DNA of 38,338 nt from Syntrophobacter sp. SbD2 (GTDB taxonomy: Bacteria > Desulfobacterota > Binatia > UBA9968): the NCBI GenBank assembly GCA_945889495.1, contig CAMDBU010000046.1:1-38338 (forward strand), in the 5' to 3' direction. Each line of letters starts with the position of its first letter. Positions within the stretch are counted from its first letter, which is position 1. Shown here piece by piece: positions 2,817-32,516 of this stretch. The position numbers and the translations under genes were made by a program. The notes beneath the pieces are model-generated. The model was not told the DNA's origin. It ran no database searches and saw only the letters and a list, made by a program, of their open reading frames with translations.

Positions 2817-4604
2817 ATGCAACCAACAGAAATTGAACTGACTAACTTTCGAACGTTTTCGCAAGGAACGGTGTATTTCCAACCGAAACTCACCGTCCTC
2901 GTTGGAGAGAACAACGGCGGGAAGAGCAACATTATCGATGCTATTCGCCTGATCTCGACCCCACTTAGTGGCCGACGTGAGATTTATTGCGAGGAGTCTG
3001 ATGTTCGGTTTGGAAGTACCGAGCGTGCGTTTGAAATTGCCGCAACCTTTTCTGGGTTGTCCGCACCTCAGCAAGGAAGGCTTCTGTCGGCCACGACAGA
3101 TGATTCTATGACTGTCGCGAAGTTCGGTTTGAAATACGATACCACAGGGAAGCGCCCGCCAGTCAGACCGACACTTTGGGCTGGACGTTTTAAGTCCGTA
3201 CCCGAGCCCGGCTGCCAGGAGATGATTCGACATGTCTATCTACCTCCACTTCGGGATGCGAAACGCGCTCTGGCCTCCGGCAACCCAACCCGTATAAACG
3301 CTCTTCTCAACCACTTTCTGGCCGGACGCGATCCCGACGACGTTGCGAAAAGTCTCGCACGCGAAGCCGATGATCCGATTCTCACAAACGTGGACGCTGC
3401 AGTCACACTTGGGCTGGATGCCCTAACAACAGGCGTCCGTCAACAAAGTGCATCCCTCGGATTCAGCACTGAGGAAAAGCTTATCGATATCGCTAGAGAT
3501 CTTCGCTTCAAACTCTCCGATTACGGCATTAAACCCGAAGATCTTCGATACTCCGGACACGGGTTCGCCAACCTCCTCTATATGGCCACAATCGCAGTGG
3601 AATTAGAGAAGGTTGATAACGCGGACTTAACACTCTTCCTCGTCGAGGAGCCCGAGGCTCATCTTCATCCGCAGCTTCAAGCCGCAGTCCTCAGCTTTCT
3701 TGAAGAACGAGCAACAAAGTCGCTCACGCCAAAATCGGACCCGAACGCGCCTGCTGGACACATGCAGGTCCTCGTCGCTACTCACTCTCCAAATCTTTCT
3801 GCTTGGGTCGCCAGTAGTGAAATTGTCGTCATTCGCTCGACGTTTCCCGAATCATTTCAAGAGACGGAAGAACCCCCAGCAGTTTTAACGCCTCGGCGTC
3901 GCGAAACTCGCTGCATTCCGATCGCACGATTGGATTTGACGGACGCGGAGCGGAGAAAAATAGATCGCTATCTCGACGTGACGAAATCTGCCCTTCTTTT
4001 CGGAGGCCGTGTCATACTGGTCGAGGGTATTGCCGAGTCGCTATTAATACCAGTCATAGCAAAACACTATGTTTTGAAAAACAGGATAGATGATCTTCGA
4101 AAATTCCGTTCCGTCGCATTCGTGCCAATTGATGGTGTTGATTTCACGCCTTACGTGAAAATATTATTGATGACCTTCAATGGCGCACGCATCGCTGATC
4201 GGCTGGTAGTTTTGACAGACGGCGACAAAACCACAGTAGCGGTTGGCAATGATCTTCCAGGCGACAAAAGGAAATCGGCTCTTAACGCTCTCGCCGTAGC
4301 GAACGATGCTCGGCAGGTTCTTGACGTTTTTGTGAATACGTACTCTTTGGAGGCTGAGATCGTTGCCGCGGGGAATGTGTCAATAATGAAAAAAGTTTTC
4401 CTCGATCTTCACCCGCAATCCGAACAGAAATGGGAGGCTGCAATCAGCCTGACAGGCGACGATCAAGCAAAATCCATCCAAAATCTATTCACGACTACGC
4501 GAAAAGGCGACTTCGCTCAGGTACTAGCCGAACAAATAAACAGAAGCGCCCATTTCATCGTTCCAGATTACATCGGCAAGGCCATTGAAGCTTTGGTAAA
4601 ATGA
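2817..4604 (+). CDS. OLD-family ATPase/TOPRIM nuclease (class 2 OLD, GajA-like)
   Basis: This 595-residue protein has an N-terminal ABC-type ATPase and a C-terminal TOPRIM nuclease. Walker A is GENNGGKS (30-37), the signature-like loop is RYSGHGF (244-250), Walker B is FLVEEPEAHLHP (274-285), and the switch histidine is in ATHS (H323). The TOPRIM part has LVEGIAE (E403, E407), the DxD pair in LTDGDK (D468, D470), and the OLD-typical YSLEAEI (509-515). All metal-binding acidic residues look intact. It overlaps the downstream UvrD-like helicase gene by four bases (ATGA), the arrangement that defines class 2 OLD proteins. Gabija (GajA/GajB) anti-phage systems belong to this arrangement. No good ribosome site precedes the ATG. 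Base composition is clearly lower in GC than the flanking metabolic genes. The role in phage defence is inferred from family and layout. Confidence 0.9.
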   Translation: MQPTEIELTNFRTFSQGTVYFQPKLTVLVGENNGGKSNIIDAIRLISTPLSGRREIYCEESDVRFGSTERAFEIAATFSGLSAPQQGRLLSATTDDSMTVAKFGLKYDTTGKRPPVRPTLWAGRFKSVPEPGCQEMIRHVYLPPLRDAKRALASGNPTRINALLNHFLAGRDPDDVAKSLAREADDPILTNVDAAVTLGLDALTTGVRQQSASLGFSTEEKLIDIARDLRFKLSDYGIKPEDLRYSGHGFANLLYMATIAVELEKVDNADLTLFLVEEPEAHLHPQLQAAVLSFLEERATKSLTPKSDPNAPAGHMQVLVATHSPNLSAWVASSEIVVIRSTFPESFQETEEPPAVLTPRRRETRCIPIARLDLTDAERRKIDRYLDVTKSALLFGGRVILVEGIAESLLIPVIAKHYVLKNRIDDLRKFRSVAFVPIDGVDFTPYVKILLMTFNGARIADRLVVLTDGDKTTVAVGNDLPGDKRKSALNALAVANDARQVLDVFVNTYSLEAEIVAAGNVSIMKKVFLDLHPQSEQKWEAAISLTGDDQAKSIQNLFTTTRKGDFAQVLAEQINRSAHFIVPDYIGKAIEALVK

Positions 4605-6349
4605 CTGGAGCGCAATTCGATCCCACATCGGAGCAGCAGCAGATCATCTGTCAAGATGGATCATTGTTCGTAACCGCCTGCCCGGGCGCTGGCAAAACCC
4701 GTGTGATGGTAGCGCGAGCCCACCGCATCTTCACGAAGATGCCAATCGGCAATGGGATAGCTTTTTTATCATTCACTCGAACTGCGGTTTCCGAACTAGA
4801 AACGTGCCTTAGGCGACACTCACTTGTGCCCTCACCTGTATTTCCGAACTTTATTGGGACTTTCGACAGTTTCGTTTGGCAGTTCCTCGTTGTTCCATTC
4901 GGACTACCCGGCTCAGATATGCGCCCTCGGTTAATCCCCGACATGAACGATTGGAAAGTATCGCCTTACGATGGGGCACGGCCCTTGCCTCTGTCATGCT
5001 TCTCCAGGTCCTCTGGCGCGATCGACGAAGTTGCTGCAAAACGGCTTGGGTTCGACACATCGGAAAAGACCAAGACAACTCTTCAAAGCTACTCTACAGC
5101 TGCAAACCGCCTCCGAACGCGCTTACGTGAACAAGGAATTTTGGGATTTGATGAAGCTAGAGCTGTGGCACTGGAGCGAATCGATGACTCCATGTGGTCG
5201 TCACGCATAGCCGCCGCGCTTTCCGCGAGATTCTGTGAAGCGATTATTGACGAAGCACAAGATTGCAATCCGGATGACCTTAGAATCATTTCCTGGATTC
5301 GCGACGCCGGCATTCCTACAAAAGTAATTTGTGATCCCCATCAGTCTATCTACGCGTTTCGCGGCGGTATAACCGATCAGCTTTTCGCGTTTAAAGAAAA
5401 TTACAAGGAACACGAGCGCAAAAGTTTGCAGGGAAACTTCCGATCCAGTCAGAACATCTGCAAAGCTATCGCAATGATGCGGCCTCCACCTGATCAACAT
5501 CAAGCGGATGAGCCACTCGGACAGTTCAAAGATATTAACTATCCAGTTCATATCTTATCGTACCGTGGAACTGCCGTCCCATCCTCTATCGGGGCTACTT
5601 TCTCAGAGTTAGTTCAAAATATCGACGAGGATATATCCGGCTGCCCAGTACTAGCGGCCACTAAACTAAGTGGAGCCGCCGCAGTCGGGCAACAACGCGG
5701 GAGAGGTAAGGAAGATGCGACTTTCCGCCTAGCGCAGGCAGTGATGGCCTTCCATTTCCCATCGGGCTTTGACGATGTCAGGTTTGCCATTGAGGAGGCG
5801 CACCGAGTCATTCTGGAGATCGAAAATGTCCTTTCGACATCTTCGTATCACAAATACTTATCGGACAATGACATTAAACCAGAATCCTGGCGACCAAAGG
5901 TGATTCAGATCCTTCGTGAGTTACGATTCGATCCAGCCGCGTTCCACGATGCTCGATTTTGGCATAATCATGCCAAGCCCATCATCGAGCGCAATGTAAA
6001 AACGACGGATCGAATCTTAATAAACCAGAAGCTCAAATGGAATGTAGGTATCGAGACAATACTTTTAAAAGCGCCGACAGGAGGTGCGATGGCCCGAACC
6101 ATACATTCCGTCAAGGGGTTGGAGTTTGCAGCCGTATGCGTTGTAACCACCCCCGGAACGCTTACGGGAGTTCTTGATTATTTGGAAAACGGCTCGCCAC
6201 ATGATCACGCTGAAGACGCACGAGTGTTATACGTCGCAGCATCCAGGGCTCAGAAGCTCTTAGTGTTTGCCTCTCCAAAAAGCCAAGCAAACCGTTTCAG
6301 CTCACACCTTCGCAAGCAAGGTGCAAAAGTGATATTGACCGAAATCTAA
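4601..6349 (+). CDS. UvrD/PcrA-like superfamily 1 helicase (GajB-like)
   Basis: This 582-residue protein carries the SF1A helicase motifs in order: Q-motif TSEQQQII (9-16), Walker A CPGAGKT (27-33), motif Ia FLSFTRTAVSEL (55-66), Ib GTFDSF (86-91), motif II IIDEAQD (215-221), motif III CDPHQSIYAFRGG (244-256), motif IV GNFRSS (278-283), motif V HSVKGLEF (502-509) and motif VI VLYVAASRA (542-550). All are intact. It is shorter than housekeeping UvrD or PcrA (about 700 residues or more), as expected for the GajB-type partner. The start overlaps the nuclease gene's stop, so the two are translated together. In Gabija the helicase partner associates with the OLD nuclease; the same is assumed here. 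A sampled line at 5281 has 27 G/C in 60 bases, against 43 in a line at 6841 in the next gene, consistent with horizontal acquisition. Confidence 0.9.
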   Translation: MTGAQFDPTSEQQQIICQDGSLFVTACPGAGKTRVMVARAHRIFTKMPIGNGIAFLSFTRTAVSELETCLRRHSLVPSPVFPNFIGTFDSFVWQFLVVPFGLPGSDMRPRLIPDMNDWKVSPYDGARPLPLSCFSRSSGAIDEVAAKRLGFDTSEKTKTTLQSYSTAANRLRTRLREQGILGFDEARAVALERIDDSMWSSRIAAALSARFCEAIIDEAQDCNPDDLRIISWIRDAGIPTKVICDPHQSIYAFRGGITDQLFAFKENYKEHERKSLQGNFRSSQNICKAIAMMRPPPDQHQADEPLGQFKDINYPVHILSYRGTAVPSSIGATFSELVQNIDEDISGCPVLAATKLSGAAAVGQQRGRGKEDATFRLAQAVMAFHFPSGFDDVRFAIEEAHRVILEIENVLSTSSYHKYLSDNDIKPESWRPKVIQILRELRFDPAAFHDARFWHNHAKPIIERNVKTTDRILINQKLKWNVGIETILLKAPTGGAMARTIHSVKGLEFAAVCVVTTPGTLTGVLDYLENGSPHDHAEDARVLYVAASRAQKLLVFASPKSQANRFSSHLRKQGAKVILTEI

Positions 6350-6412
6350 GATCACTCGCTGGAAGATTAATGACTCTCATAAGCGGCAGTTAACGTGGGG
6401 AGAAGCGAAGTA

Positions 6413-7360
6413 ATGAAGCTGACACTCTTGTTCGCACTGTTTGTTCTCGCGCTAACTTTCGTTTCCTTCACCGCCCACGCCGAAGTCGTCAACATCGGCA
6501 TCTCCACCGTGGGCCTTTACGAGCTACCGACGGAGATTTCCAAGCGGCGCGGCTTCTACCAAGAGGAAGGGCTCGAAGTGCGCAAGATCGCGGTGCGCTC
6601 GCCGCTGCATGTGCCGGCGCTGCTCGCCGGCGAGCTGGATTATTCCACCGTGACCGGACTGATCTTGAGCGCCAGCGTCCAAGGCATGCCGCTCAAATCC
6701 GTGATGGGCTGGTTCGACAAACCGCTGCACATGTTGATCGCCCGGCCCAATATCAAGCGGCTCACCGATCTGAAAGATAAGCGCGTCGCGGTCAGCGGCT
6801 TTGGTTCGATCCCCCATGTCATGCTGCGCGAGGCGCTGGCCGGCGCCGGCATGAATCCGGACAAGGACATCACCGTGCTGGCGCTGGGCGGCTCGGGCGA
6901 CCGGCTGGCAGCGTTGATCAGCGGCATCGTCGACGCGACGCCCCTCGATATCGCTTACATCCAGCGCACCGAAAAGCTCGGCTACAACAACCTGCTTTAT
7001 TTGGGCGACGTGGTGAACCTGCGGTTGGGCGGCTTGGCCGCCAGCAACGACAAGATTCAGCGCAATCCCGAACAGATCACCCGGGTCATCCGCGCCACGC
7101 TCAAAGGCGTGCGCTTTATGAAAACCAACAAGCCGGAAACCCTGGCGATCATGCGCGACTATCTGAAAATCAGCGGCGACTACGTCGAGAAAATTTATTT
7201 ATTCGCTCTCAAATCGCTCAACGAGGACGGCCTGGTGGCGAAAAGCAGCCTGGACAACGAGATTCGCCTGGCGCGCGAGCAGCTCAAAGTGAAGGAAGAA
7301 GTCGCCGAATCAAAAGTCGCCGAGTGGAAATTCATCAAAGACATTCTCGCCAAGCGATAG
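6413..7360 (+). CDS. ABC transporter substrate-binding protein, NMT1/SsuA-like
   Basis: A 315-residue exported binding protein. The signal peptide runs to about AHA|EV (residue 23). It is followed by the family pattern: ISKRRGFYQEEGLEV (ligand-domain entry), LLAGELDYST, the LTDLKDKRVAVSGFGS hinge strand, and MNPDKDITVLALGGSGDR. I chose the ATG at 6413 because GGGGAG lies ten bases upstream; a GTG at 6395 would add six residues before the signal peptide. It ends with EWKFIKDIL rather than the VD(S/N/A)S tail of most paralogues here, and in this it resembles the protein at 36052. No permease or ATPase gene is adjacent. The ligand is unknown. Confidence 0.88.
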   Translation: MKLTLLFALFVLALTFVSFTAHAEVVNIGISTVGLYELPTEISKRRGFYQEEGLEVRKIAVRSPLHVPALLAGELDYSTVTGLILSASVQGMPLKSVMGWFDKPLHMLIARPNIKRLTDLKDKRVAVSGFGSIPHVMLREALAGAGMNPDKDITVLALGGSGDRLAALISGIVDATPLDIAYIQRTEKLGYNNLLYLGDVVNLRLGGLAASNDKIQRNPEQITRVIRATLKGVRFMKTNKPETLAIMRDYLKISGDYVEKIYLFALKSLNEDGLVAKSSLDNEIRLAREQLKVKEEVAESKVAEWKFIKDILAKR

Positions 7361-7675
7361 TCGAAGACTTTTTCCCACAAAGTGTTTTATGATCTTGCCC
7401 ACACCCACAGATAACGAAAATAACCGATTAGGCCTCCAAGGCTCATTTTCTCGATCCGTCATTCCCGCGCAGGCGGGAATCCAGGTTTGTTCGCCGCCGA
7501 ATTAGCCTGGTTACCCGCTTTCGCGGGTATGACGGAACCTTGGTGCCAATTTGTTGGGAGATCATTCAGGCACAACTATTTTTGAAGGAGGATAGAAAGA
7601 GCACGAACTTCGGAAGTTCGGCAAACTGAACCCGTCTTGCGGGTTTTGCGTTCTTTGCGGCTAATTTCTTAATCC
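7361..7675. other. Convergent intergenic region, 315 bp
   Basis: The space between two convergent genes holds no credible coding sequence. It contains an inverted pair of REP-like elements (listed separately), a small hairpin CGAACTTC/GAAGTTCG near 7603-7619, and a weak AACCCG/CGGGTT stem at 7629-7645 followed by TTGCGTTCTTTGCGG, a phrase that recurs near 8718-8740. It probably stops transcription from both sides. Confidence 0.5.
7455..7536. repeat. Inverted pair of REP-like elements
   Basis: TCCGTCATTCCCGCGC and AGGCGGGAATCCAGG (7455-7485) is one small palindromic unit. GCCTGGTTACCCGC and TTTCGCGGGTATGACGGA (7505-7536) is a second in opposite orientation. The two halves pair with each other over about 32 bases with roughly six mismatches. 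The word 'cgtcattcccgcg...gcgggaatccag' is a dispersed repeat common in many proteobacterial genomes. Such paired elements often sit in 3' regions and can stabilise transcripts or act as terminators. Confidence 0.75.
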
Positions 7676-8704
7676 CTACTCCCCCAGCAACTTTCTCACC
7701 CGCTCGATCACCTGGGAGTTCTGCGACGCGATCACCTGCTTCGCCAACCCTTCCAACTCGTCGCCGCTGCTCGGCGTGATTTCGAGATTCTGCGATTTGG
7801 CGTCGGCGAGCAGTTCCGGGTCGGCCATCGCCTTCATGAACGCGGCGCGGAGGATTTTCGTCTTATCAGCCGCCACGCCGGGCGGCGCGATGATTGGCCG
7901 GCCGAAGTCGGTGGCGGCGAGGATCATGGTTAACAGCTGCCGCGCCGGCGCCGGCGTATTGGCTTCCTTCATCAGTTCATAAATCGTCGGCGTATCGGCG
8001 AACTGCGGATCGCGGCTCTTGCCGGTCTGGACTAAGACACGGGCGAAGCCGGTCTTGCGCCAGGTGTGGTAGGGCTCGCGCGCCAAATAGGCCGCCGTGG
8101 TCATGGCGCGGCAGTGCAGTTCGCCGCGCTCGACGCCGAGATCGATCTCGCGCACGCCCTGGTAGCCGGCGACGACGTTGAACTTCACGCCGACGGTTTC
8201 TTCGAGCAGTTTTAGAATGTAGACGCCGGAAGTTCCCGCTGCCGTGGCGCCGCAGCGTGGCAGCTCCTTGGCTTTGCGCACGTCGGCCAAACTCTTGAAG
8301 CCCAGATCGGCGCGAATATAGAGCATGTGATCGGTCTTGTCGGTGCTGCCGATCCAGGTGAACTTGCCCCAGTCGAATTTGATTTCCTTCTGCTTTAGCA
8401 GCTGGTGGAAATAAATCGCCGGCTGCACAGCACCGATGGTCAAGCCGTCCGGCTTGCTGACGTTGTAAACGTAATTGGCGCCGACCACCGAACCGGCCCC
8501 GCCCATATTCTGCACGATAAAGTTGGGATTGCCGGGAATATGCCGGCCGATATGGCGCGTGATCAGCCGCACGTACAAATCGTAAGTGCTCCCGGCATTT
8601 GCCCCCGCCACCACCGTAACCGTCTTACCCTGGTAGAAGTTCGATTGTGCGTTCGCGGCAGAAGTGAACGCGAGCGGCAGCAAGAGCCAGAGAAGCGGTG
8701 TCAA
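7676..8704 (-). CDS. Tripartite tricarboxylate transporter-type binding protein (TctC/Bug family)
   Basis: This 342-residue exported protein belongs to the Bug/TctC family of extracytoplasmic receptors, which bind carboxylates and similar small molecules. The signal peptide ends near ANA|QS (residue 19). Family features include FYQGKTVTVVAGANAGSTYD at the mature N-terminus, the HIPGNPNFIVQNMGGAGS segment and the KPDGLTIG strand. The start is a TTG at 8704, supported by GGGGAG five bases upstream. The family normally works with TctA/TctB membrane proteins, but neither is in the window, so this is an orphan receptor like thousands of Bug proteins in Bordetella-type genomes. The ligand is unknown. 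Confidence 0.9.
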   Translation of the reverse strand: MTPLLWLLLPLAFTSAANAQSNFYQGKTVTVVAGANAGSTYDLYVRLITRHIGRHIPGNPNFIVQNMGGAGSVVGANYVYNVSKPDGLTIGAVQPAIYFHQLLKQKEIKFDWGKFTWIGSTDKTDHMLYIRADLGFKSLADVRKAKELPRCGATAAGTSGVYILKLLEETVGVKFNVVAGYQGVREIDLGVERGELHCRAMTTAAYLAREPYHTWRKTGFARVLVQTGKSRDPQFADTPTIYELMKEANTPAPARQLLTMILAATDFGRPIIAPPGVAADKTKILRAAFMKAMADPELLADAKSQNLEITPSSGDELEGLAKQVIASQNSQVIERVRKLLGE

Positions 8705-8752
8705 TGAATCTCCCCTTTGCGTTTTTTGCGTTCTTTGCGGTTAAACAATCCG

Positions 8753-8784
8753 AAAAAAAGGGGCGATCCCATGACCGCCCCTTT
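8753..8784 (-). terminator. Intrinsic terminator for the LLM oxidoreductase gene
   Basis: AAAGGGGCG (8757-8765) pairs with CGCCCCTTT (8776-8784). Read on the minus strand the hairpin is followed directly by a run of seven T residues, a good Rho-independent terminator. It lies 50 bases after the stop of the minus-strand gene ending at 8835 and upstream of the TctC-like gene, so it should separate their transcription. Confidence 0.8.
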
Positions 8785-8834
8785 CGTTTAACCGGGCGCA
8801 GCATGCTGCGCCCCTATTGCCTCATGCCTATTGC

Positions 8835-9833
8835 CTACGAGTTCCCCCACGCCTCGAAAAACCGCCGAGCATCGGCAACCGGCTCGGTCACCGGCACGTA
8901 GGGAATCACCATACGCGTCACGCCGACGGCCTCGAAGGCTTTCATCTTTTCCTTGATCTCGCTCACATCGCTGGCGGGCACGACGGGGAGCTTGTCCATG
9001 TACTCATCAGTGAGCGCGCCCATGGCGGCTTTGAAGCCGCCCTTTTGAAACGCTTCGTGAATCGCGCTCACCTCGGCGTCAAAGCCCATGCCGCGCAGCA
9101 TGTCGCTGTAGTGATCGGCGATGTTGTAAAAGGTCAGCACCTGGCGCAGCTTGGCGCGGGCTAAATTTTTATCGGGATTGAGCGACACCCGCGACTTGGC
9201 GATGATCTCGATCTTGCTCGGGTCGCGGCCGGCTTCGCGGGCGCCTTCATGAACCCGGCCGACGATCTCTTTGACTTTCGCCGGCGTCGCCATGTTGATG
9301 ACGATGCCGTCGGCGATCTTGCCCACCAGCTTGGTCATCTGCGGCCCCAAGCCGGCCAAATAAATCGGCACATCGGGAAAACTCGGCTTCCACGACAACT
9401 GAAAGCGCTTGCCGGTCTGGTAAATCTCGCCCTCGTACTCGACCCGTTCGCCGCGCGCGACTTTGCGCGTGACCTCGATATATTCGCGCGCCCGCTTCAG
9501 CGGCCGGTCGAAGACGCCGCCGTGCCAGCCAGCGATCGCCTTGTTGGCAACACCGAGCCCCAGCAGCAAACGGCCGCCGGACAAATCTTGCAGCGTGGCG
9601 GACTGAATGCCCAAGGTCACCGGGCTGCGGCCGTAAATATGGTAGATCGCCGTGCCCAGCTTGATCTTCTTGGTCCGGCTCGCCACCGCCGACAGCATAA
9701 CGAAAGGATCGGTGCTGTTGGACTCGCCTTTCCAAAACGCGCCGAAGCCGGCCTGCTCGGCGATCTCGATCAGCCCCGGCACTTCGGCCGCCGGATAGTG
9801 CGCCGCGGAATTTATTTCTACGTCAAATATCAT
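8835..9833 (-). CDS. LLM-class flavin/F420-dependent oxidoreductase
   Basis: This 332-residue luciferase-like monooxygenase-fold protein is close to the F420-dependent methylene-tetrahydromethanopterin reductase-like subfamily. Visible features are the EIAEQAGFGAFWKGE N-terminal helix-strand, the KIKLGTAIYHIYGRSPVT strand with the non-prolyl cis-peptide region, LSGGRLLLGLGVANKAIAGWHG (flavin-contact segment, split here for length), and PIYLAGLGPQMTKLVG followed by DGIVINMA. AGGGGAC precedes the ATG. The substrate cannot be predicted; members oxidise or reduce many organic compounds with FMN or F420. It is a single-gene transcription unit by appearance, with a clear terminator after it. Confidence 0.9.
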   Translation of the reverse strand: MIFDVEINSAAHYPAAEVPGLIEIAEQAGFGAFWKGESNSTDPFVMLSAVASRTKKIKLGTAIYHIYGRSPVTLGIQSATLQDLSGGRLLLGLGVANKAIAGWHGGVFDRPLKRAREYIEVTRKVARGERVEYEGEIYQTGKRFQLSWKPSFPDVPIYLAGLGPQMTKLVGKIADGIVINMATPAKVKEIVGRVHEGAREAGRDPSKIEIIAKSRVSLNPDKNLARAKLRQVLTFYNIADHYSDMLRGMGFDAEVSAIHEAFQKGGFKAAMGALTDEYMDKLPVVPASDVSEIKEKMKAFEAVGVTRMVIPYVPVTEPVADARRFFEAWGNS

Positions 9834-18883: not shown

Positions 18884-19600
18884 TTAGGCTTCAAGGCGCC
18901 CCCAGGAATGGCGAGCCGACCACACATCGGGACGACGATGTACTCGATGGGTAAGATAATAAACGTAATCAGCAAGCTGCTCTTTACGCTCGGGAGACAA
19001 AAACCCAAACTCAGCGAGAAACCGCTCGACCGCCTGAGAGGTTGGAACATTCGAGATACCACCATCACGCAATGCGTTCCAAGCGACCATTGTCGTCGGG
19101 TCGGTCTTGGTGGGAATGGTAGAGCCCCCAAGTATGAAATGTACGTAGTCAAACTCTACTACTCGATGCCACTCAACAAGAGTTGCCTCAATTTCGATCT
19201 CTGAGACTTTGATCTCTCGAAGAACGGAAATGAGGTTATTTTTGATCTGATCCTGCTCGTGATCTGAGTAGCCGCCAAATCGGCCACTCCGCTGTACCAG
19301 CGAGAGGGAAAGTTCCGTGATCCTCTGAGCTAGCAGCTGAAGTTCTCGAAGAGTGCTTTCTGCTCGTGCGACAACCTCTCGCGTCTTTGCCTCAACTCCG
19401 CTTCTCGATGCTTTGAACTCCGATATCCGGTCGAGATTTCCCGCCAGCAGGCAGCCAACAAAACCAAGAAAAGCAACGACCATTACCCAAGATCCTCCCC
19501 AAAAGCCTGCTGCCAGGCCGCCAATCAGAATAAGCACCGCTACTATGCTGAGAAACACTTTCACGATTTTCTCCAGTCGCCCAACTACAAATCGCACCAA
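18884..19600 (-). CDS. Hypothetical membrane protein with coiled coil
   Basis: I do not recognise this 238-residue protein. It has two closely spaced transmembrane segments (about 14-33 and 36-54), then a heptad-like helix (about 60-100, with VEAKTREVVARAESTLRELQ, then ITELSLSLVQ), and a soluble C-terminal part rich in acidic residues with YVHFILGG and FGFLSPERKEQL. The frame opens at GTG 19600. A second GTG at 19564, six bases after GGAG, is an equally good start and would give 226 residues. Its GC content is lower than its neighbours and it lies beside the toxin-antitoxin-type pair, so it is probably part of an accessory patch. Confidence 0.75.
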   Translation of the reverse strand: MVRFVVGRLEKIVKVFLSIVAVLILIGGLAAGFWGGSWVMVVAFLGFVGCLLAGNLDRISEFKASRSGVEAKTREVVARAESTLRELQLLAQRITELSLSLVQRSGRFGGYSDHEQDQIKNNLISVLREIKVSEIEIEATLVEWHRVVEFDYVHFILGGSTIPTKTDPTTMVAWNALRDGGISNVPTSQAVERFLAEFGFLSPERKEQLADYVYYLTHRVHRRPDVWSARHSWGRLEA

Positions 19601-21122: not shown

Positions 21123-22103
21123 ATGAAAAAGCTCCTTCAACTGTTCAGCCTGGCGGCGCTCGCGCTGCTACCGTCGACACCCTTCGCCGCTGAGCGCATC
21201 ACCGCCGCCTACACTAGCATCGCCGCCGCCTACGCGCCCTTCTGGGTGGCCAAGGACAAAGGCATCTTCGACAAATACAACTTCGACACGCGCTTGATCT
21301 ACATGCGCGGCACGGTGCCGACGCTGGCGGCGCTGGCCAACGGTGAGCTCGACTTCGTCCAATCGGGCGCCTCGCCGTTTATACCTTACGCTGCCAGAGG
21401 CGGTGATGTGGTTTTGCTCGGTTGCCTGGCGAACAAAGTGATCGACTACGTGCTCATCGCCCAACCGTCGATCACGCGCATCGAGCAGCTGCGCGGCAAG
21501 AACATCGGCATCAGCCGCGTCGGCGACCAGACCCATCACTACGTCAGGGAAATCCTCAAGCGCTACGGCATCGGGTTGAAGGACGTGCGCCTGGTACAAA
21601 CCGGTCTACAACCGGAGCGCGTCGCGGCATTGCGCCAGGGGCTCACCAACGCGAGCATCTTGAACCGGCCCAACAATCTGCCGCTGGAGCAAGAGGGTTA
21701 TAAACGGCTGCTCGATATCGAAGACTTGAAACTGCCCGCCGGCGTGCGCTGCTTGATCACGACTAAAAAGATAATCAAAGCCAAACCGGCCATGGTCGAC
21801 AATTTCGTCATGGCCTGGTTGGAATCGGTGCGCTACATCCTGACGCAAAAGCGCGAGACCAAACAGGTGATCGCCAAATACACGTTGAACAACGATGACG
21901 TGCATCTGGAAGAAGCCTGGAACACGCTAGCGACGCAGACCGAAATCCCGCCCTACGCCTCGGTCAGCCAGCTCCAAGGCCAAGCCAACATGATGGCCGA
22001 AGACCAGCCCGACCTGGCGAAGTTCGACGCCAAAGTGATGGTCGACAACAGCGTGATTAAGCGACTGGAAGATTCCGGCTGGACCAAGAAACTGTTCCGG
22101 TAA
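21123..22103 (+). CDS. ABC transporter substrate-binding protein, NMT1/SsuA-like
   Basis: A 326-residue exported binding protein; the signal peptide ends near PFA|AE (residue 22). It has the family pattern PFWVAKDKGIFDKYNF, LANGELDFVQSG, IEQLRGKNIGISRVGDQTH and YGIGLKDVRLVQTG, and ends with MVDNSVIKRLEDSGW, the common tail of these paralogues. It is divergent from the M24 gene and convergent with another binding-protein gene. No transporter membrane gene is adjacent. The ligand is unknown. Confidence 0.9.
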   Translation: MKKLLQLFSLAALALLPSTPFAAERITAAYTSIAAAYAPFWVAKDKGIFDKYNFDTRLIYMRGTVPTLAALANGELDFVQSGASPFIPYAARGGDVVLLGCLANKVIDYVLIAQPSITRIEQLRGKNIGISRVGDQTHHYVREILKRYGIGLKDVRLVQTGLQPERVAALRQGLTNASILNRPNNLPLEQEGYKRLLDIEDLKLPAGVRCLITTKKIIKAKPAMVDNFVMAWLESVRYILTQKRETKQVIAKYTLNNDDVHLEEAWNTLATQTEIPPYASVSQLQGQANMMAEDQPDLAKFDAKVMVDNSVIKRLEDSGWTKKLFR

Positions 22104-22104
22104 G

Positions 22105-22204
22105 TCGAGAAAGAATATTTCACCACAGAGCTCACAGAGACCACAGAGAAAGGCTTCGTGAAAAACCTTCCGAACTCCGTGCCCTCTGTGGTGAAAAAAT
22201 TCGA
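22105..22204. terminator. Word-built inverted repeat between convergent genes
   Basis: TCGAG...TTTCACCACAGAGCTCACAGAG (left arm from 22105) pairs with CTCCGTGCCCTCTGTGGTGAAA...TCGA (right arm to 22204). The arms repeat the word CACAGAG. A long imperfect hairpin fills the whole gap between two convergent genes, ending in GTGAAAAAAT on one side. It probably works as a two-way transcription terminator. Confidence 0.65.
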
Positions 22205-22207
22205 CTC

Positions 22208-23179
22208 TTAAGGCACCGCCTTCGCGACTTCGGCAAGAATGCTCGCATCGATCAGCGCCTCGGCTTTCAAATTTTTCGCCGCCGGCACCGTCGGCACCAG
22301 GGAATCGATGGCGTAGCGCAGGCCGTCCAACGGCAAGGTCGGAAACGGTTCGAGAAATTTGCCCGAGTTGAACCGATAGTTCTCCTCGATGATCGCTTTA
22401 TCCTGCAAGCGCAGATTTTTCGCCAAGACCTTCTTGCTCAACTCCGGATCGTCCTGAATTTTTTTCATGCTCGCCACCAGGGCGCGCACGAAACGCACGG
22501 CCACCGGCCGGCGATCTTTCAAAAACGCCCGGCGCACCGCGCTCATGTTACCGACTACTGGAAAATTCAAACTTTCAATATCGAGGACGGTTTTGAAGCC
22601 GTCTTTTTCCAGCGTCATGGCGAAGGCCGGATTCAAGATCGTCGCCGCCACCCGGCCATTTTTGAGCGCCAGCGTGCGGTCGGCTTGGCCGCCGGTGGAG
22701 ATCACCCGGACATCGGTGTCGGGATTCATACCGAGTTTCTTGAGCGCCAGCCGGAGATAAAAATGCGACACGTCATGGAGTCGCGCGATGCCCACCACTT
22801 TGCCCTTCAACTGCTCCATCTTGTCGATGCCCGGCGCGGCGACGATGCGGTACTGCATGCGGTTGTAGACGCTGGCGATGAATTGCAAATCGGCGCCGCT
22901 GGCCATGGCGCCGATGACGTTGTGCGGAATGCAGTAGAGCACGTCGATCTCGCCGGCGACCAAGGACGACACCGCCGGATTGCCCTGAATCCAAATCAGC
23001 TCGACGTCCAACCCTTCGCGGGTGAAAATACCGGCGTCCTTGGCCAACCAAAGCGGCAGGATCGCGCCGCCGATGTAGCAATTGCTGACGCGCAGTTTGT
23101 CGGCGCCATGCACGGTCCACGCGAATAGTGGACAAACCGCCAGCAGCAACAGCATCCAATATCTTTTTCGCTTCGCCAT
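22208..23179 (-). CDS. ABC transporter substrate-binding protein, NMT1/SsuA-like
   Basis: A 323-residue exported binding protein. A basic n-region (MAKRKRYW) and hydrophobic core lead to cleavage near VHG|AD (residue 25). Family features: LPLWLAKDAGIFTREGLDVE, LVAGEIDVLYCIPH, MEQLKGKVVGIARLHDVSHF and LGMNPDTDVRVISTGG. It ends with LIDASILAEV. I took the ATG at 23179; a GTG at 23191 would add four residues. It is most like the protein at 21123, its convergent neighbour (YNRMQYRIVAAPGIDKMEQL versus CLANKVIDYVLIAQPSITRI layout). The ligand is unknown. Confidence 0.88.
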   Translation of the reverse strand: MAKRKRYWMLLLLAVCPLFAWTVHGADKLRVSNCYIGGAILPLWLAKDAGIFTREGLDVELIWIQGNPAVSSLVAGEIDVLYCIPHNVIGAMASGADLQFIASVYNRMQYRIVAAPGIDKMEQLKGKVVGIARLHDVSHFYLRLALKKLGMNPDTDVRVISTGGQADRTLALKNGRVAATILNPAFAMTLEKDGFKTVLDIESLNFPVVGNMSAVRRAFLKDRRPVAVRFVRALVASMKKIQDDPELSKKVLAKNLRLQDKAIIEENYRFNSGKFLEPFPTLPLDGLRYAIDSLVPTVPAAKNLKAEALIDASILAEVAKAVP

Positions 23180-23273
23180 ATGGCCCGACACTAGCGTGGA
23201 GTCATGATCGTATCAAGCATCGCTTGCTATCTGGGGGCGGCCTGGTTACAGAACATAAATAGTGATTTTGCTC

Positions 23274-24206
23274 ATGACAAAACTTGCGGCGCTGCTGCTC
23301 TTCGTGGCGCCCTTGCCGCTAGGTTTCGCCGCCGAACGGCCGCCGGAAAAAGTTCGCATCGCGGTGTCGTCCAAGTCGCTGGGATTCCTCGACACCTGGG
23401 CGGCCAAGGAGCGCGGTTTCTTTCGCAAGCATGGCCTCGACGCCGAGATCATCGCCATGCGCCCGCCGCTCACCATCGGCGCGTTGCAAGCGGGCGAAAT
23501 CGACTACGCCATCGGCGCCAGCACCACTTCGCGCGGCGCCATCTCAGGCGCGCCGGTGCGCATCGTCAGCCTGGCGCTACGCTCGTCGTTTCACACTCTG
23601 GTCGCGCGGCCAGCGATCAAAACCATCACCGATATGAAAGGCAAGACCATCGCGGTCACCATCGGCGCCGCCGATGATTTCGTCGCACGCCATCTGTTGC
23701 GCAGGGGCGGCGTCGATCCGCGCGATGTTCATTTCGTCAACATGGGCGGTTCGGACACGCGCTTTCCGGCGCTCTACAACGGCACCATCGACGCCTCGCC
23801 GTTGTCCCTGCCGTTCTTCGTCGTCGCCAAACGGCAAGGCTACAATCTGCTCGGCACGGCGTCCGACGTGCTCGACATGGCCACCGTCGGCATCGGTACG
23901 TCGCTCAAGAAAATCGCCCAGGAACGCGAGCAAGTGAAAAAAATGATCCGCGCCCAGCTCGACACCCTGCGCTGGATCAAGACGCAGAAAGCCGAGGTCG
24001 TGACGTTCTTGCAAAAATTTTACGGCCTCGACGAAGCCATGGCGGTGGAATCCCACGCCATCTATGCCAAACTGATCATCGACGACGCCCGCCCGTTGGC
24101 CGAGGCGGTCAAGACCGTACTCGATCAACAGGGCAAACCAGATTTGCCTCTCGACCGCGTGGTCGACGCCTCGGTGGTCGAAGAAGTGCTGCGCGAACGG
24201 AGATAA
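23274..24206 (+). CDS. ABC transporter substrate-binding protein, NMT1/SsuA-like
   Basis: A 310-residue exported binding protein; the signal peptide ends near GFA|AE (residue 19). Features: TWAAKERGFFRKHGLDAEI, LQAGEIDYAIGAST, ITDMKGKTIAVTIGAADDF and VDPRDVHFVNMGGSDTRF. It ends with VVDASVVEEVL. I took the ATG at 23274; a GTG at 23262 adds four residues. Its TAA shares one base with the ATG of the following amidohydrolase gene, so the two are co-translated. This links the binding protein to that enzyme and makes the amidohydrolase substrate, or a precursor, the best guess for its ligand. Confidence 0.9.
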   Translation: MTKLAALLLFVAPLPLGFAAERPPEKVRIAVSSKSLGFLDTWAAKERGFFRKHGLDAEIIAMRPPLTIGALQAGEIDYAIGASTTSRGAISGAPVRIVSLALRSSFHTLVARPAIKTITDMKGKTIAVTIGAADDFVARHLLRRGGVDPRDVHFVNMGGSDTRFPALYNGTIDASPLSLPFFVVAKRQGYNLLGTASDVLDMATVGIGTSLKKIAQEREQVKKMIRAQLDTLRWIKTQKAEVVTFLQKFYGLDEAMAVESHAIYAKLIIDDARPLAEAVKTVLDQQGKPDLPLDRVVDASVVEEVLRERR

Positions 24207-25309
24207 TGATGGCTGACAATGGAATCCGCATCATCGACATCGACGGCCATGTGCGCGAAGCAGATGACCTATTCGAGAAATATTTAGAACCGCCGTTCCG
24301 CGCCCGGGCGCCGAAGATCGAGAAAGTCGCCAACGGCCAGCTCTTGTTTCGGCTCGAAGGTGAGCGCCATCACCGCCGGCCCGACGAATCGCCGTTCCGC
24401 GTCAAGGACGACGGTTCGCCGGTCAACGAAGGGCGGCATCTGGCGACTAATCCGAAGCAACGCTTGGAAGCCATGGATCGCGACCGCATCGAGCGCGGCC
24501 TGTTGTTTCCCTCCGCCGGCTTATATCTCGCATCGGTTGAAGAAGACGGTTACGCGGCGGCGCTGTGCCGCGCCTACAACAACTGGCTCTATGATTATTG
24601 CGGCGGTGACCGCAAACGTTTGCTGGGCGTGGCGGCGGTGCCGACCCAGGACGTCAATCTCGCCATCGCCGAAGCCAAACGCGCGGTCAACGAGCTCGGC
24701 TTCAAGGGCATCTTCGTCCGGCCCAATCCGGTCAAAGGCCGCAACATCGACGATCCTTACTACGATCCGCTGTATCGAACCGTCGTCGAGCTCGGCGTGC
24801 CGCTGTTGATCCACGAAGGCTCCGGCGCCTTCATGCCCACCGCCGGCGCCGACCGCTTCGCCGGCCAATGGTTTTTTACCCACACGATTTCCCATCCGTT
24901 GGAACAGATGCTGGCGAGCTTGAGTTTGATCTGCCGCGGCGCCCTGGAGCGCAATCCGGAATTGCAGTGCGTGTTTCTCGAAGCCGGCGCCGGCTGGCTG
25001 CCCTACTGGCTCTGGCGCATGGACGAGCACTACGAAGTGCTGCCCTTCCAAGTGCCCTGGCTGAAAATGAAACCGAGCGACTACTTTCGCCGCCAATGTT
25101 TCATCTCCTTCGAAGCCGACGAAACCCGCCTGGGCGAAGTGATCGCATCCATCGGCGCCGACCGCGTGGTGTTCGCGTCGGACTACCCGCACTGGGACGC
25201 GACCTTCCCCGGCGTCACCGATATGATTTTGAACCGCAAAGATTTGGACGCCGACACCCAGCGCAAGATTATGGGCGAGAATGCCGCGAAGTTACTGAAG
25301 CTGGAATAA
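24206..25309 (+). CDS. Amidohydrolase-2 (ACMSD-like) family hydrolase/decarboxylase
   Basis: This 367-residue TIM-barrel protein belongs to the amidohydrolase-2 family. The first metal strand reads IDIDGHVRE (D11, H15), H203 lies in PLLIHEGSG and D326 in VFASDYPHWD, the usual near-C-terminal catalytic aspartate. Relatives hydrolyse cyclic amides or lactones or decarboxylate aromatic acids such as aminocarboxymuconate semialdehyde and resorcylates. Helix RLEAMDRDRIERGLLFPS is typical. The ATG overlaps the previous stop; another ATG follows three bases later. It is likely one step in breakdown of the compound imported by the neighbouring binding protein. Confidence 0.92.
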   Translation: MMADNGIRIIDIDGHVREADDLFEKYLEPPFRARAPKIEKVANGQLLFRLEGERHHRRPDESPFRVKDDGSPVNEGRHLATNPKQRLEAMDRDRIERGLLFPSAGLYLASVEEDGYAAALCRAYNNWLYDYCGGDRKRLLGVAAVPTQDVNLAIAEAKRAVNELGFKGIFVRPNPVKGRNIDDPYYDPLYRTVVELGVPLLIHEGSGAFMPTAGADRFAGQWFFTHTISHPLEQMLASLSLICRGALERNPELQCVFLEAGAGWLPYWLWRMDEHYEVLPFQVPWLKMKPSDYFRRQCFISFEADETRLGEVIASIGADRVVFASDYPHWDATFPGVTDMILNRKDLDADTQRKIMGENAAKLLKLE

Positions 25310-25317
25310 TACTAATC

Positions 25318-25376
25318 GTCTCGTGTCCGAAGTCTCGAGTCTCGGGTTTGTAACTCGGGACGCGAGACGCGAGACC
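25318..25376. repeat. Word-built inverted repeat (GTCTCG)
   Basis: The region reads CGTCTCGTGTCCGAAGTCTC, GAGTCTCGGG, a short centre, then CTCGGGACGCGAGACGCGAG. Arms built from GTCTCG/CGAGAC pair imperfectly around 25350. It fills most of the 85-base gap between the amidohydrolase and lyase-like genes, which run in the same direction. Confidence 0.6.
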
Positions 25377-25394
25377 GCAAACTGGAGGTTTATG

Positions 25395-26174
25395 ATGGCC
25401 GACATACCGAAACTAGTTTCATCCATGGGCCGCGCCGAGCATGACAAGATTTTCGTGCGCGATTATGACCTGAACAAAGACCTGCTCGGCAAGATCAGCT
25501 TCTCGCAGATGGTCTGCCTGATGCTCCAAGGCCGGCTGCCGACCGCCGATGAAGGCAAGATGATCGACTCGATGTTGATCGTCTTGGTCGATCATGGCAT
25601 GACCACCGGCGCCGCCGCGGCGCGCATGACCTTTCACTCGGCGCCGGAAGCGATTCAGGGCGCCGTGGCCGCCGCCATTCTCGGCGCCGGCAGCGTTCAT
25701 CTTGGCTCGTCGGAATATTGCGCGAAAATGTTGCACGACGCGCTCAGCAAAGAAGCCAAGGACGCCGACCTCGACGCCGTGGCGTTGAAAACCGTCGAGC
25801 GCCGCTTGGCCAACAATCAATTGATTCCCGGCATCGGCCATGGCATCCACACCGACGGCGACCCGCGCGCCGCGCGGCTGTTCGAAGTCGCCCAGGAAAC
25901 CAAAGTCCATGGCCGCAACTGCGAGCTATTGAAGAAGATCGGCAAGATCGCCGACCAGAAAGTCGGCCGCCATCTGCCGGTCAATGTCACCGGCGCTATC
26001 GCGGCGATCTCCCAGGACATGGGCTTTCACTGGCAGATGTCGAAGAGCTTCGCGATCCTGGGCCGCGCGCTCGGCGGTCTCGCCCATGTCGGTGAAGAAA
26101 TCCGCCGCCCCATCGCCCGGGGAATTTCGAATATGATTCGGGATAATTTGGTGTACGAGCCGGAATCGAAGTGA
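25395..26174 (+). CDS. Citryl-CoA lyase / citrate synthase-like protein
   Basis: This 259-residue protein corresponds to the citrate synthase-fold lyase module as found in citryl-CoA lyase and the C-terminal part of ATP-citrate lyase. It has H102 in GAGSVHLGSS, the IPGIGHGIHTDGDPRAARL motif (H149), and a C-terminal HVGEEIRRPIARG. Where citrate synthase-type enzymes have a catalytic Asp, the text reads VNVTGAIAAISQDMG, with T199 in its place. Some annotated citryl-CoA lyases seem to share this form, so it may be a subfamily trait. I use the ATG at 25395, six bases after GGAGG. It could cleave or form a branched acyl-CoA; the substrate is unknown. Confidence 0.87.
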   Translation: MADIPKLVSSMGRAEHDKIFVRDYDLNKDLLGKISFSQMVCLMLQGRLPTADEGKMIDSMLIVLVDHGMTTGAAAARMTFHSAPEAIQGAVAAAILGAGSVHLGSSEYCAKMLHDALSKEAKDADLDAVALKTVERRLANNQLIPGIGHGIHTDGDPRAARLFEVAQETKVHGRNCELLKKIGKIADQKVGRHLPVNVTGAIAAISQDMGFHWQMSKSFAILGRALGGLAHVGEEIRRPIARGISNMIRDNLVYEPESK

Positions 26175-26273
26175 TTCAAGGTTCCGGGTTCACGAGCCGG
26201 CCCTGAGTTTATCGAAGGGCATAAAGTTTTCGGCCGCTTCAAGCGAACCACGGCGGACTTCGAAGGTTCAACG

Positions 26274-27266
26274 ATGAAATCGAACTTTATTCTGGGACTT
26301 GGTCTGGCGTTGGCATTATATTTTGCGAACCCAGCCGACGCACAGTTGCGCAAGCTCAACATGGCCTACACCGCCACGAGCCCTTATCAAGCCGTGGTGG
26401 TGATCGCCAAAGACGCCGGCTTTTTTAAGAAGTACAACCTCGACGTCACTTTGATCTTCATGGGCGGTGGCTCCCTCGGCATTCAAGCGATGATGGGTGG
26501 CGACGTGCCGATGATCATCGCCGATGGCTCGGCGGCGGTGGGCAGCCGGTTGGCCGGCAGCGATGCGGTGGTGATCGCCAGCTTTCTCAATACATTTCCC
26601 TATAGCCTGGTTTCGCTGCCGGAGATCAAAAGAGTGGAGCAGCTCAAGGGCGGGCGCATCGCCATCAGCCGCTTCGGCAGCGCCGCCGATACCGGCGTCA
26701 AGATGGCGTTAGCGAAAGCTGGGCTCAATCCCGATCGCGACATGACACTGCTGCAGATTGGCGCGCAAACGGCTCGCTTCTCAGCGTTGCAAGCGAAAAC
26801 CGTCGAAGCGACGATCATCACGCCGCCATTTACGCTGACGACTAGAAAGCTTGGCTATCCAACGCTGCTCGAAATGGCCGATCAGAACATCCCTTTTCAA
26901 ATGGGCGGTCTGCTGTCGACGCGCGGATATTTGAAGTCCAATCCCGACACGGCGCAATCGGTCATGCGCGCGCTCGCCGAGGCGATTCACTTTTACAAAA
27001 AAGAAAAAGATGCGAGTCTAAAAATCCTCGCCCGCTATCTGAAGATCGATGATCGCGACGCCTTGGAAGAAACCCACCGGGAGGTGGCGTTGAAAGTCGT
27101 GCCGGAAAAGCCCTATCCGACGCTGGCGGGCATTCAAACCATCCTCGACGAACTGGGCCGAAGAAATCCCAAAGCCAAAGCCATGCGCCCGGAAGAGTTC
27201 GTCGATTCGAGCTTAGTTAAAAAATTGGACGACGAAGGGCTCTTCGACCGTCTCTACAAGAGGTGA
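26274..27266 (+). CDS. ABC transporter substrate-binding protein, tandem copy 1
   Basis: A 330-residue exported binding protein; the signal peptide ends near ADA|QL (residue 23). Features: AYTATSPYQAVVVIAKDAG, MMGGDVPMIIADGSA, VEQLKGGRIAISRFGSAADT and ATIITPPFTLT. The tail is EEFVDSSLVKKLDDEG. It is roughly 70% identical by eye to the next gene, which starts ten bases after its stop, so a tandem duplication is clear. The mature termini start identically (QLRK, AYTATSPYQAV). The pair follows the lyase-like gene and probably shares its operon. Confidence 0.92.
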   Translation: MKSNFILGLGLALALYFANPADAQLRKLNMAYTATSPYQAVVVIAKDAGFFKKYNLDVTLIFMGGGSLGIQAMMGGDVPMIIADGSAAVGSRLAGSDAVVIASFLNTFPYSLVSLPEIKRVEQLKGGRIAISRFGSAADTGVKMALAKAGLNPDRDMTLLQIGAQTARFSALQAKTVEATIITPPFTLTTRKLGYPTLLEMADQNIPFQMGGLLSTRGYLKSNPDTAQSVMRALAEAIHFYKKEKDASLKILARYLKIDDRDALEETHREVALKVVPEKPYPTLAGIQTILDELGRRNPKAKAMRPEEFVDSSLVKKLDDEGLFDRLYKR

Positions 27267-27276
27267 GCTCAATCCT

Positions 27277-28275
27277 ATGCGCGATCTAAGAATGGTTCTG
27301 TCGGTTGTGGCCGTAGCCGGTTTCTTTTCCGCCGTTGAATCCGCCAACGCGCAACTGCGCAAGATCAACATCGCCTACACCGCGACTAGCCCCTATCAGG
27401 CGGTGCTGATCGTCGCCAAGGAAGTCGGACTGTTTAAAAAACACAACCTCGATCCGACCTTGGTCTTCACCACCGGCGGGTCGTTGGGCATTCAGGCGAT
27501 GCTCGGCGGCGATGTCGCGATGACACTGTCGGACGGTTCATCGTCGGTGGTCAGTCACCTCGCCGGCGTCGATGTTGTGGTCATCGCTAGTCTATTGAAT
27601 ACGTTTCCCTATAGCTTGATCTCGCTGCCGGAGATCAAGAAAGTCGACCAGCTCAGGGGAACGAAAATCGCCGTCAGCCGGTTCGGCAGCGCGACGGATT
27701 TGAGCGTCAAGATGGCCTTGGCGAAAGTTGGTTTGAACGCCGAGAAGGATGTCACGCTGCTCCAGATCGGCGTGCAAACCGCGCGCTACACGGCGATGCT
27801 GTCAAAGAATGTCCAGGCGACGATCATCACGCCGCCCTTCACGCTGACCGCGCGCAAGGCCGGCATGAATACCTTGATCGACATGTCCGAACTCAACATC
27901 CCGTTTCAACTGACCGGCCTATTGGCCCTGCGGCCCTATTTGAAAAGCAATCCCGACATGGTGCTGTCGGTGATCCGGGTGCTCGCCGAAGCCATTCACT
28001 TTTACAAGCGGGAAAAAGAACCGACGTTGAAAATCCTCGGCAAGTATTTGAAGACCGATGACCGCGACGCGCTGGAAGAAACCCACCGCGAGATCGCCAT
28101 CAAGTCGCTACCGGAAAAGCCCTATCCAACCCTGGCCGGGATCAAAACCATCCTCGACGAAACCGTCTTGCGCAACCCCAAAGCGCGCGGGCTCAAGCCG
28201 GAAGAGTTCGTCGATTCGAGCTTCGTGAAAAAAGTCGACGACGAAGGCTTGTTCGAGCGGTTGTACAAACGTTAG
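27277..28275 (+). CDS. ABC transporter substrate-binding protein, tandem copy 2
   Basis: A 332-residue exported binding protein; the signal peptide ends near ANA|QL (residue 25). It shares long blocks with the preceding copy, for example PEKPYPTLAGI, DDRDALEETHRE and FVDSS, but differs around the expected ligand cleft (TLSDGSSSVVSHLAGVD versus IIADGSAAVGSRLAGSD). The two may therefore bind different but related ligands, or bind one ligand with different affinity. It is followed after 30 bases by the secreted-protein pair, with TAGGAGG between. Confidence 0.92.
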   Translation: MRDLRMVLSVVAVAGFFSAVESANAQLRKINIAYTATSPYQAVLIVAKEVGLFKKHNLDPTLVFTTGGSLGIQAMLGGDVAMTLSDGSSSVVSHLAGVDVVVIASLLNTFPYSLISLPEIKKVDQLRGTKIAVSRFGSATDLSVKMALAKVGLNAEKDVTLLQIGVQTARYTAMLSKNVQATIITPPFTLTARKAGMNTLIDMSELNIPFQLTGLLALRPYLKSNPDMVLSVIRVLAEAIHFYKREKEPTLKILGKYLKTDDRDALEETHREIAIKSLPEKPYPTLAGIKTILDETVLRNPKARGLKPEEFVDSSFVKKVDDEGLFERLYKR

Positions 28276-28305
28276 TGCGCAAAAATCTTTTCTTAGGAGG
28301 CAGAC

Positions 28306-28890
28306 ATGATCGGTAGAATGGCCGTTTTCATCCTACGCGCGTTCTTCAGTATCGCCGGCTTGGCCGCTAGTGCTGCCGGCGCCAGCGCGCAGGACGTAAC
28401 CGCCTGTGCCATCGTTACTGGCGACGTCGCGCAAAAATTCGTCGGCGGGCCGCTCGACGTCAAGGAACAGGCCAAGGTGCCCATCGACAACGCCCCGGGT
28501 GCTTACAATTCGGTCTGCACCTACATCGCGCGCGGCCTGGCGGTCGACAAGGCGCTGACGGCGCCCCGTTTGCTGGACTTGACCTTGCACTTTCTCGACA
28601 CCCCGGAAGCGATGGCGAAAATCTACGAGAACTCCGTCATCAACTATTCCCAGGTGGTTAATATTCCCGATGAGCGATTCAAAAACCCTACCGTCAACTT
28701 CCTCCCGGGTTTCGGCGACAAAGCCTTTGTCTTCGAAGCAGTGACCGATCCGCAGAGCAATTTCAAATCAGCGCTGATCGTTTTCTACAAGGGCCGCATC
28801 GGCGGCAGCATCGCCGCCTGGCAGCGTCCCGAGCCCAGCGCCGAGACCACCAAGGCGGTTTTGAAATACATCCTCAGCCGACTGCCATGA
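28306..28890 (+). CDS. Secreted two-cysteine protein, tandem copy 1
   Basis: I cannot name a function. This 194-residue protein has a signal peptide (cleavage near ASA|QD, residue 28) and a mature domain starting DVTACAIVTGDVAQKFVG. A second cysteine lies in NSVCTY (C71). The layout Cys-x-x-(V/L)-T-x-x-(D/E)-A...G-x-P-L...S-x-C-x-Y recalls DUF3558-like extracytoplasmic proteins; a C34-C71 disulfide is likely. It has TAGGAGG before the ATG. It overlaps the next gene by four bases (ATGA) and that gene encodes a clear paralogue. Expression with the binding proteins upstream suggests a periplasmic accessory role. Confidence 0.85.
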   Translation: MIGRMAVFILRAFFSIAGLAASAAGASAQDVTACAIVTGDVAQKFVGGPLDVKEQAKVPIDNAPGAYNSVCTYIARGLAVDKALTAPRLLDLTLHFLDTPEAMAKIYENSVINYSQVVNIPDERFKNPTVNFLPGFGDKAFVFEAVTDPQSNFKSALIVFYKGRIGGSIAAWQRPEPSAETTKAVLKYILSRLP

Positions 28891-29465
28891 AGCGAACTAT
28901 CCTACGACTGCTATCCATCGCCGTGACTTTGATCGTCGGCTCTAACGCCCAGGCGGCGGAACCGGTCGACATCTCCGCCTGCGCCACGGTCACCATGGCC
29001 GACGCCGAGAAATTTATCGGCGCGCCGCTGGACGTCGCCAAGATCGACAAGAAAATCATGATCAACGCGCCCTGGAGCCATGACTCGCTGTGCACCTACA
29101 TGCCCCAGGGAATCAAAACCGACGACCCCACCGAGATCCCCCGCTTCCTCGACGTCAGCCTGCGATTTTTCCCCACCACCGAAGCGGCCCAGGCGATTCA
29201 CCAGGCAACCATCGAGCAATTTCGCAAGATGGCCGCCAGCCCGGAAGCGCCGATTAAAATCATCGCCATCAATCCCCTCGACGGACTAGCGGCCAACGCG
29301 TTCTACGTCGAGATGCAAACCGACGCCAACTCGGATTTCAAATCCGCCATGATCATGTTCGTCAAAGATACCGTCGGCGGCGCGGTGAGCGCGTGGAAGA
29401 AACCGCAGTCGTCGTTGGAACTCAGCAAAGCCGTGCTGCAGCAAGTCTTGATGAAATTACCCTAG
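28887..29465 (+). CDS. Secreted two-cysteine protein, tandem copy 2
   Basis: A 192-residue paralogue of the preceding protein. The signal peptide ends near AQA|AE (residue 23), followed by ISACATVTMADAEKFIGAPL with C32 and DSLCTYMPQG with C69. Shared later blocks are SDFKSAMIMF versus SNFKSALIVF, VGGAVSAWKKP versus IGGSIAAWQRP, and similar final helices ending in KLP/RLP. Similarity is moderate, so the duplication is old yet the genes remain fused by an ATGA overlap, suggesting a hetero-complex. No catalytic motif is visible. Confidence 0.85.
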   Translation: MKRTILRLLSIAVTLIVGSNAQAAEPVDISACATVTMADAEKFIGAPLDVAKIDKKIMINAPWSHDSLCTYMPQGIKTDDPTEIPRFLDVSLRFFPTTEAAQAIHQATIEQFRKMAASPEAPIKIIAINPLDGLAANAFYVEMQTDANSDFKSAMIMFVKDTVGGAVSAWKKPQSSLELSKAVLQQVLMKLP

Positions 29466-29505
29466 AACCTCGTCAGCGCAACCCCGGCAAGTAGATTTCC
29501 CGTAG

Positions 29506-29525
29506 GGGCGAAAAAATTTTCGCCC
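29506..29525 (+). terminator. Hairpin after the secreted-protein pair
   Basis: A perfect palindrome GGGCGAAAA / TTTTCGCCC (29506-29525) lies 40 bases after the operon's last stop. The following CTCCCCTTCGTGCCCTTCG repeats a TTCGTGCC word. There is no clean T-run beyond the one inside the stem. It is a plausible terminator of the 23274-29465 gene run. Confidence 0.5.
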
Positions 29526-32515: not shown

Positions 32516-32516
32516 C

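Follow-up and report, generated by a model that had tools for sequence, protein, structure and literature searches.

An intact Gabija-type gene pair, very probably gained horizontally, in Syntrophobacter sp. SbD2

Two overlapping genes of low GC content near the left end of a contig raise the question of whether they form an anti-phage system of the Gabija type, how the genome came by them and whether their long helicase marks a separate subtype. The window, which is the whole stretch of DNA that was analysed, corresponds to the entire contig C46 (38,338 bases) of a 5.64 Mb genome in 239 contigs, so the left context stops 2.8 kb before the pair. The features of the locus are the following:

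2817 to 4604, forward strand: gajA, class 2 OLD-type ABC ATPase plus TOPRIM nuclease, 595 aa (PADLOC, Pfam, XccOLD 6njv)
4601 to 6349, forward strand: gajB, UvrD/PcrA-like SF1A helicase partner, 582 aa (PADLOC, solved GajB chains)
4601 to 4604, forward strand: ATGA overlap between the gajA stop and the gajB start (ORF coordinates)

Profile searches with GajA and GajB models, the check proposed in the preliminary description for its class 2 OLD-UvrD (Gabija-like) pair, gave very strong PADLOC matches to both. Specifically, GajA matched PDLC00100 at 6e-293 and PDLC00073 at 3.5e-243, while GajB matched PDLC00149 at 4.1e-231, with its residues 4-582 lying on model positions 3-577 of 577. Each protein aligned to its PADLOC Gabija models (PDLC00100/PDLC00073 and PDLC00149/PDLC00112) along all or nearly all of its length, and the genes were adjacent; ordinary sequence divergence was the only difference. 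Pfam assigned AAA_15 (5.3e-26), AAA_21 (4e-18) and OLD-like_TOPRIM (1.9e-6) to the first protein and UvrD-helicase (4.7e-24) plus UvrD_C to the second. The nearest solved sequence to GajA was the TOPRIM domain of XccOLD (6njv, 2.7e-12), followed by the class 2 OLD nuclease BpOLD (6nk8, 2e-8). These are the closest solved TOPRIM domains, both solved as isolated C-terminal domains only, and the acidic TOPRIM residues and the lysine of GajA aligned with those of the two structures. As a single query, GajA showed no match to the founder BcGajA chains (phmmer, E<=0.001); the founder chains were reached by profile (3.1e-8) over the N-terminal 75 positions. GajB matched the solved GajB chains, with E-values from 3e-13 to 8e-13, and UvrD/PcrA as well. 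AlphaFold monomers built from three-row alignments were poor (mean pLDDT of 42.7 for GajA and 45.6 for GajB) and were not used.

Membership of other families was also considered. Against the NCBIfam repair-helicase equivalogs, the best score was 71.4 bits (PcrA) for a cut-off of 911, well below the level required for the housekeeping UvrD/PcrA/Rep or AddA families. A class 1 OLD protein is encoded by a single gene without a helicase partner, whereas here gajB overlaps gajA. Class 3 OLD proteins belong to retrons, with a reverse transcriptase and an ncRNA alongside; the neighbour proteins scanned (DUF433, DUF5615, substrate-binding proteins and a dipeptidase scrap) included no reverse transcriptase, in a protein-only scan with the left contig end 2.8 kb off. 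According to the excerpted text of a review, all GajA proteins are treated as class 2 OLD proteins (PMC10568477). The profile matches and the alignment with solved OLD domains support the assignment of the pair, at the sequence level, to a class 2 OLD nuclease with a UvrD-like helicase, i.e. Gabija.

We then considered the catalytic residues, using an eight-row GajA alignment (window, Azospirillum, Paraburkholderia, Methylocystis, Sphingobium, Ensifer, Sinorhizobium and Prescottella) and a GajB alignment with the matching eight rows. The ATPase and TOPRIM motifs reported earlier for the first gene were intact and conserved. The Walker A motif of GajA (GENNGGKS, residues 30-37) was invariant in 8/8 rows except at residue 34, and the Walker-B-like motif (FLVEEPE, residues 274-280) was invariant throughout, as were H323, E403, D468, D470, E512 and K563. 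The TOPRIM active site (invariant Glu, Gly and DxD) was complete, with G440 present in the window protein and in seven of the eight aligned. These residues were judged against the BcGajA site, as given in excerpts of PMC10781630, and the XccOLD alignment. The SF1A helicase motifs described for the second gene were likewise present and invariant in all eight rows: motif I (ACPGAGKT, 26-33), DExQD (217-221), Q248, R281, IH..KG (501-506) and R549. The ATGA overlap noted in the preliminary description is shared by the ORFs 2817-4604 and 4601-6349, and a four-base gajA/gajB overlap was also found in several relatives, in annotated or mechanical ORFs. This overlap suggests that the translation of gajA and gajB may be coupled.

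The length of the helicase had been taken as a sign of a possible distinct subtype. We rejected this candidate, since the best PADLOC model has 577 positions and was matched end to end, and the GajB ORFs of the four closest plasmid relatives measure 574-576 aa, which makes 582 aa ordinary. The short form is the solved B. cereus GajB (493-499 aa), and about 575 aa is normal in the branch of the window. With the Gabija system of B. cereus VD045 (the founder, solved as a 4:4 complex), the pair has in common the domain layout, the ABC ATPase, the TOPRIM residues and the SF1A motifs, but it is distant in sequence and its GajB is longer than the solved chains. The plasmid relatives from Azospirillum, Paraburkholderia, Methylocystis and Sphingobium are closer (GajA 53-55% identical, adjacent GajB 41-44%). 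Their GajA proteins measure 648-671 aa, compared with 595 aa in the window, owing to shorter linkers before the TOPRIM domain and after DxD in the latter. The locus is thus an intact new example of a very common, already known defence system and not a new kind.

As a background for the base composition of the pair, we took 236 ORFs, each 250 aa or longer, from 400 kb of its own genome in 20 stretches; their mean GC was 0.596 and their mean GC3 0.748. In this sample, gajA (GC 0.508, GC3 0.503) stood at the 2.5th percentile for GC, GC3 and codon fit, and gajB (GC 0.502, GC3 0.503) at the 1.7th, 2.5th and 2.1st percentiles, respectively. The lower GC reported from the window alone therefore held against the genome sample, within its lowest 2.5%. 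Sliding-window GC was 48-54% over the pair and mostly 55-63% further along, and composition was normal for the genome in the next three genes on the right-hand side (6395-9833). A 238-aa ORF on the reverse strand (18884-19600) had a GC3 as low as that of gajAB (0.50) and no Pfam or PADLOC match.

The pair had been described as embedded in metabolic genes, which is loosely right: the flanks encode mostly transporter substrate-binding proteins, NMT1-like by Pfam and TctC-like by eye, with a DUF433-DUF5615 pair just upstream. NMT1-like proteins are much expanded, with 80 matches to one query genome-wide (E<=1e-30), and in the window they occupy 21123-38096. The DUF433-DUF5615 pair (1736-2379; Pfam 2e-24 and 3e-34), also of low GC, is presumably toxin-antitoxin-like; our search found no paper that named DUF433, DUF5615 and toxin-antitoxin systems together. 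Further upstream, a substrate-binding protein gene (533-1552) has its C-terminal part (1223-1483) duplicated at 2468-2722 with about 87% DNA identity, and the two copies flank a C-terminal scrap of an M19 dipeptidase (about 1495-1680) and the DUF433-DUF5615 pair. Copies of a short segment upstream of gajA (2431-2469) lie at three positions around 32-33 kb of contig C52 of the same genome (88-91% identity), which makes it a dispersed repeat, and the start of contig C46 has a degenerate 23-base tandem repeat (56-147). No tRNA genes were found in the window. The scanned window proteins around the pair included no further recognised phage-defence protein, the contig ending 2.8 kb upstream.

Relatives of GajA were rare in the host lineage. 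In the class sample, 2 out of 148 genomes carried one, own genome included (E<=1e-20), and the GajA of the other genome was 32% identical and had its own adjacent UvrD-like ORF. None of the four congeners, one of them only 67% complete, carried a relative at the same threshold, and an even draw of the phylum gave 7 out of 395 genomes, own included, the others being 29-34% identical. Plasmid records matching GajA numbered 348 at 1e-5, of which 80 covered at least 80% of the query and 197 were predicted to be conjugative. The best four plasmid relatives, all pseudomonadotal, were 52.8-54.9% identical, and a GajB ORF adjoined GajA in the eight relative loci checked. A single-sequence scan of the viral collection found no relative. 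With profiles, 7 GajA and 50 helicase loci came up there, most of them weak or incomplete matches, and only the two best of the GajA loci (L072 and L073, with about 24% identity) were taken further.

Both trees grouped the window GajA with the plasmid-borne relatives from Pseudomonadota, at moderate support values. The first tree (88/93) had very long branches and contained Ensifer and Sinorhizobium rows shortened to 359 aa, because ORFs had been picked from ATG starts only. The rebuilt tree (82/94) had full-length rows and fewer distant ones; L134 failed the motif filter, and L136, L137, L072 and L073 were omitted. A search for an empty site, comparing 15 window ORFs with 11 stretches of own and related genomes, chosen around matches to the flanking genes, gave single flanking-gene matches and no synteny across the pair (matches of at least 50% identity). 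The claimed horizontal acquisition is thus well supported by the foreign composition of the pair, the rarity and low identity (at most 34%) of relatives in the class and phylum versus 53-55% on pseudomonadotal plasmids, and the tree placement, all of which point to a gain from other bacteria.

Several relatives lie among other defence genes. Nine of the other genes at the Ensifer, Sinorhizobium, Sphingobium and Paraburkholderia loci were scanned with PADLOC, and three of these four neighbourhoods contained clear defence neighbours. The Ensifer pair (L009) is preceded by a CBASS cyclase (1.8e-155) and a 2TM/Cap15-type effector (4.1e-89). Lit (7.7e-26) and an Avs1b-like protein (9.5e-31) were found close to the Sinorhizobium pair (L038), and AbiGi (2.5e-9) next to that of Sphingobium (L037). 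The Paraburkholderia locus (L035) yielded only weak PADLOC matches, but it encodes a STAND NTPase domain and has a gene annotated as an integrase. By annotation, the neighbours in Methylocystis (L036) and Prescottella (L039) include recombinases and, in the latter, a restriction endonuclease; the Azospirillum record carries no annotation.

By analogy with the B. cereus and P. aeruginosa systems, GajA would form an oligomer whose TOPRIM domains act as Mg-dependent DNA nucleases, and GajB would dock on it as a UvrD-like partner. Invading phage DNA would be nicked or cut by the GajAB complex, or have its linear ends blocked. The trigger may be falling host nucleotide pools, or phage DNA ends that the host RecBCD/AddAB-type enzyme has left unhandled. 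That this pair forms a complex, responds to such a trigger, cleaves DNA and protects against phages is inferred from published work on other Gabija systems. In one study, BcGajB had no helicase activity (PMC10681800). The excerpted preprint on the P. aeruginosa system proposes that Gabija targets linear DNA that lacks RecBCD and prevents phage genomes from circularising (PMC12407980). The genome of the window encodes an AddAB-like pair on contig C68 (adjacent 1087- and 1143-aa frames with PDDEXK_1, of which the second also has a UvrD domain) as well as a separate 701-aa UvrD-type frame (2.9e-74). The proposal that Gabija guards DNA ends would therefore at least be compatible with this host. 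In the table of the excerpted review, BcGajA is site-specific and strongly inhibited by ATP, unlike BpOLD, which is non-specific with a negligible nucleotide effect (PMC10568477). The branch of the window, nearer in its TOPRIM domain to the Xcc and Bp class 2 OLD proteins than to the founder GajA, might differ in trigger or cutting mode (non-specific, end-acting and not restrained by ATP) and read the AddAB rather than the RecBCD status of DNA ends, a proposal that we regard as rather doubtful.

Other explanations of the pair were weighed. UvrD and TOPRIM/OLD folds are also found in repair, and the archaeal OLD protein Cran1 has, in the excerpted account, a role in the cell cycle (PMC12796447), so that the two genes could encode a housekeeping repair nuclease-helicase pair and not a defence system. 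However, a repair function fits poorly with the occurrence of GajA relatives in so few genomes of the class and in no congener, with the foreign composition of both genes and with equivalog scores of 71 bits at most, far under the cut-offs; the profiles did not place the proteins firmly in a housekeeping repair clade, as the preliminary description had allowed they might. The separate UvrD-type and AddAB-like genes of the host also argue against it. We therefore rejected repair as the main reading and consider it extremely improbable. A pair that was acquired intact but is now silent or incompatible with the host, and hence without current function, would agree with the low codon fit (lowest 2.1-2.5%) and with the adjoining scraps of host genes, namely the dipeptidase C-terminus and the duplicated substrate-binding-protein fragment. 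Decay would be expected to break ORFs, whereas two long ORFs have kept every catalytic residue and the overlap, which makes such silence improbable.

The target of the pair could also be mainly plasmids or other mobile DNA instead of phages, and the many plasmid-borne relatives, over half of the matching records being predicted conjugative, are compatible with competition between elements. However, plasmid carriage is common among phage-defence systems in general. In the presence of certain phage genes, plasmid transduction was also sensitive to the P. aeruginosa system, as excerpted from PMC12407980, but the characterised Gabija systems act on phages in the excerpted accounts (PMC10781630, PMC10568477), and a main role against plasmids seems decidedly improbable. 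The locus is very probably a horizontally acquired Gabija anti-phage operon, the expected protection from phages being drawn from other Gabija members.

The value of this finding lies mainly in a correctly named defence locus: one more Gabija, apparently gained horizontally, in a transporter-rich genome whose class almost lacks this system. In addition, an Xcc/Bp-like Gabija branch in a host with AddAB-like enzymes would offer a different repair background in which to test the idea that Gabija senses the absence of RecBCD.
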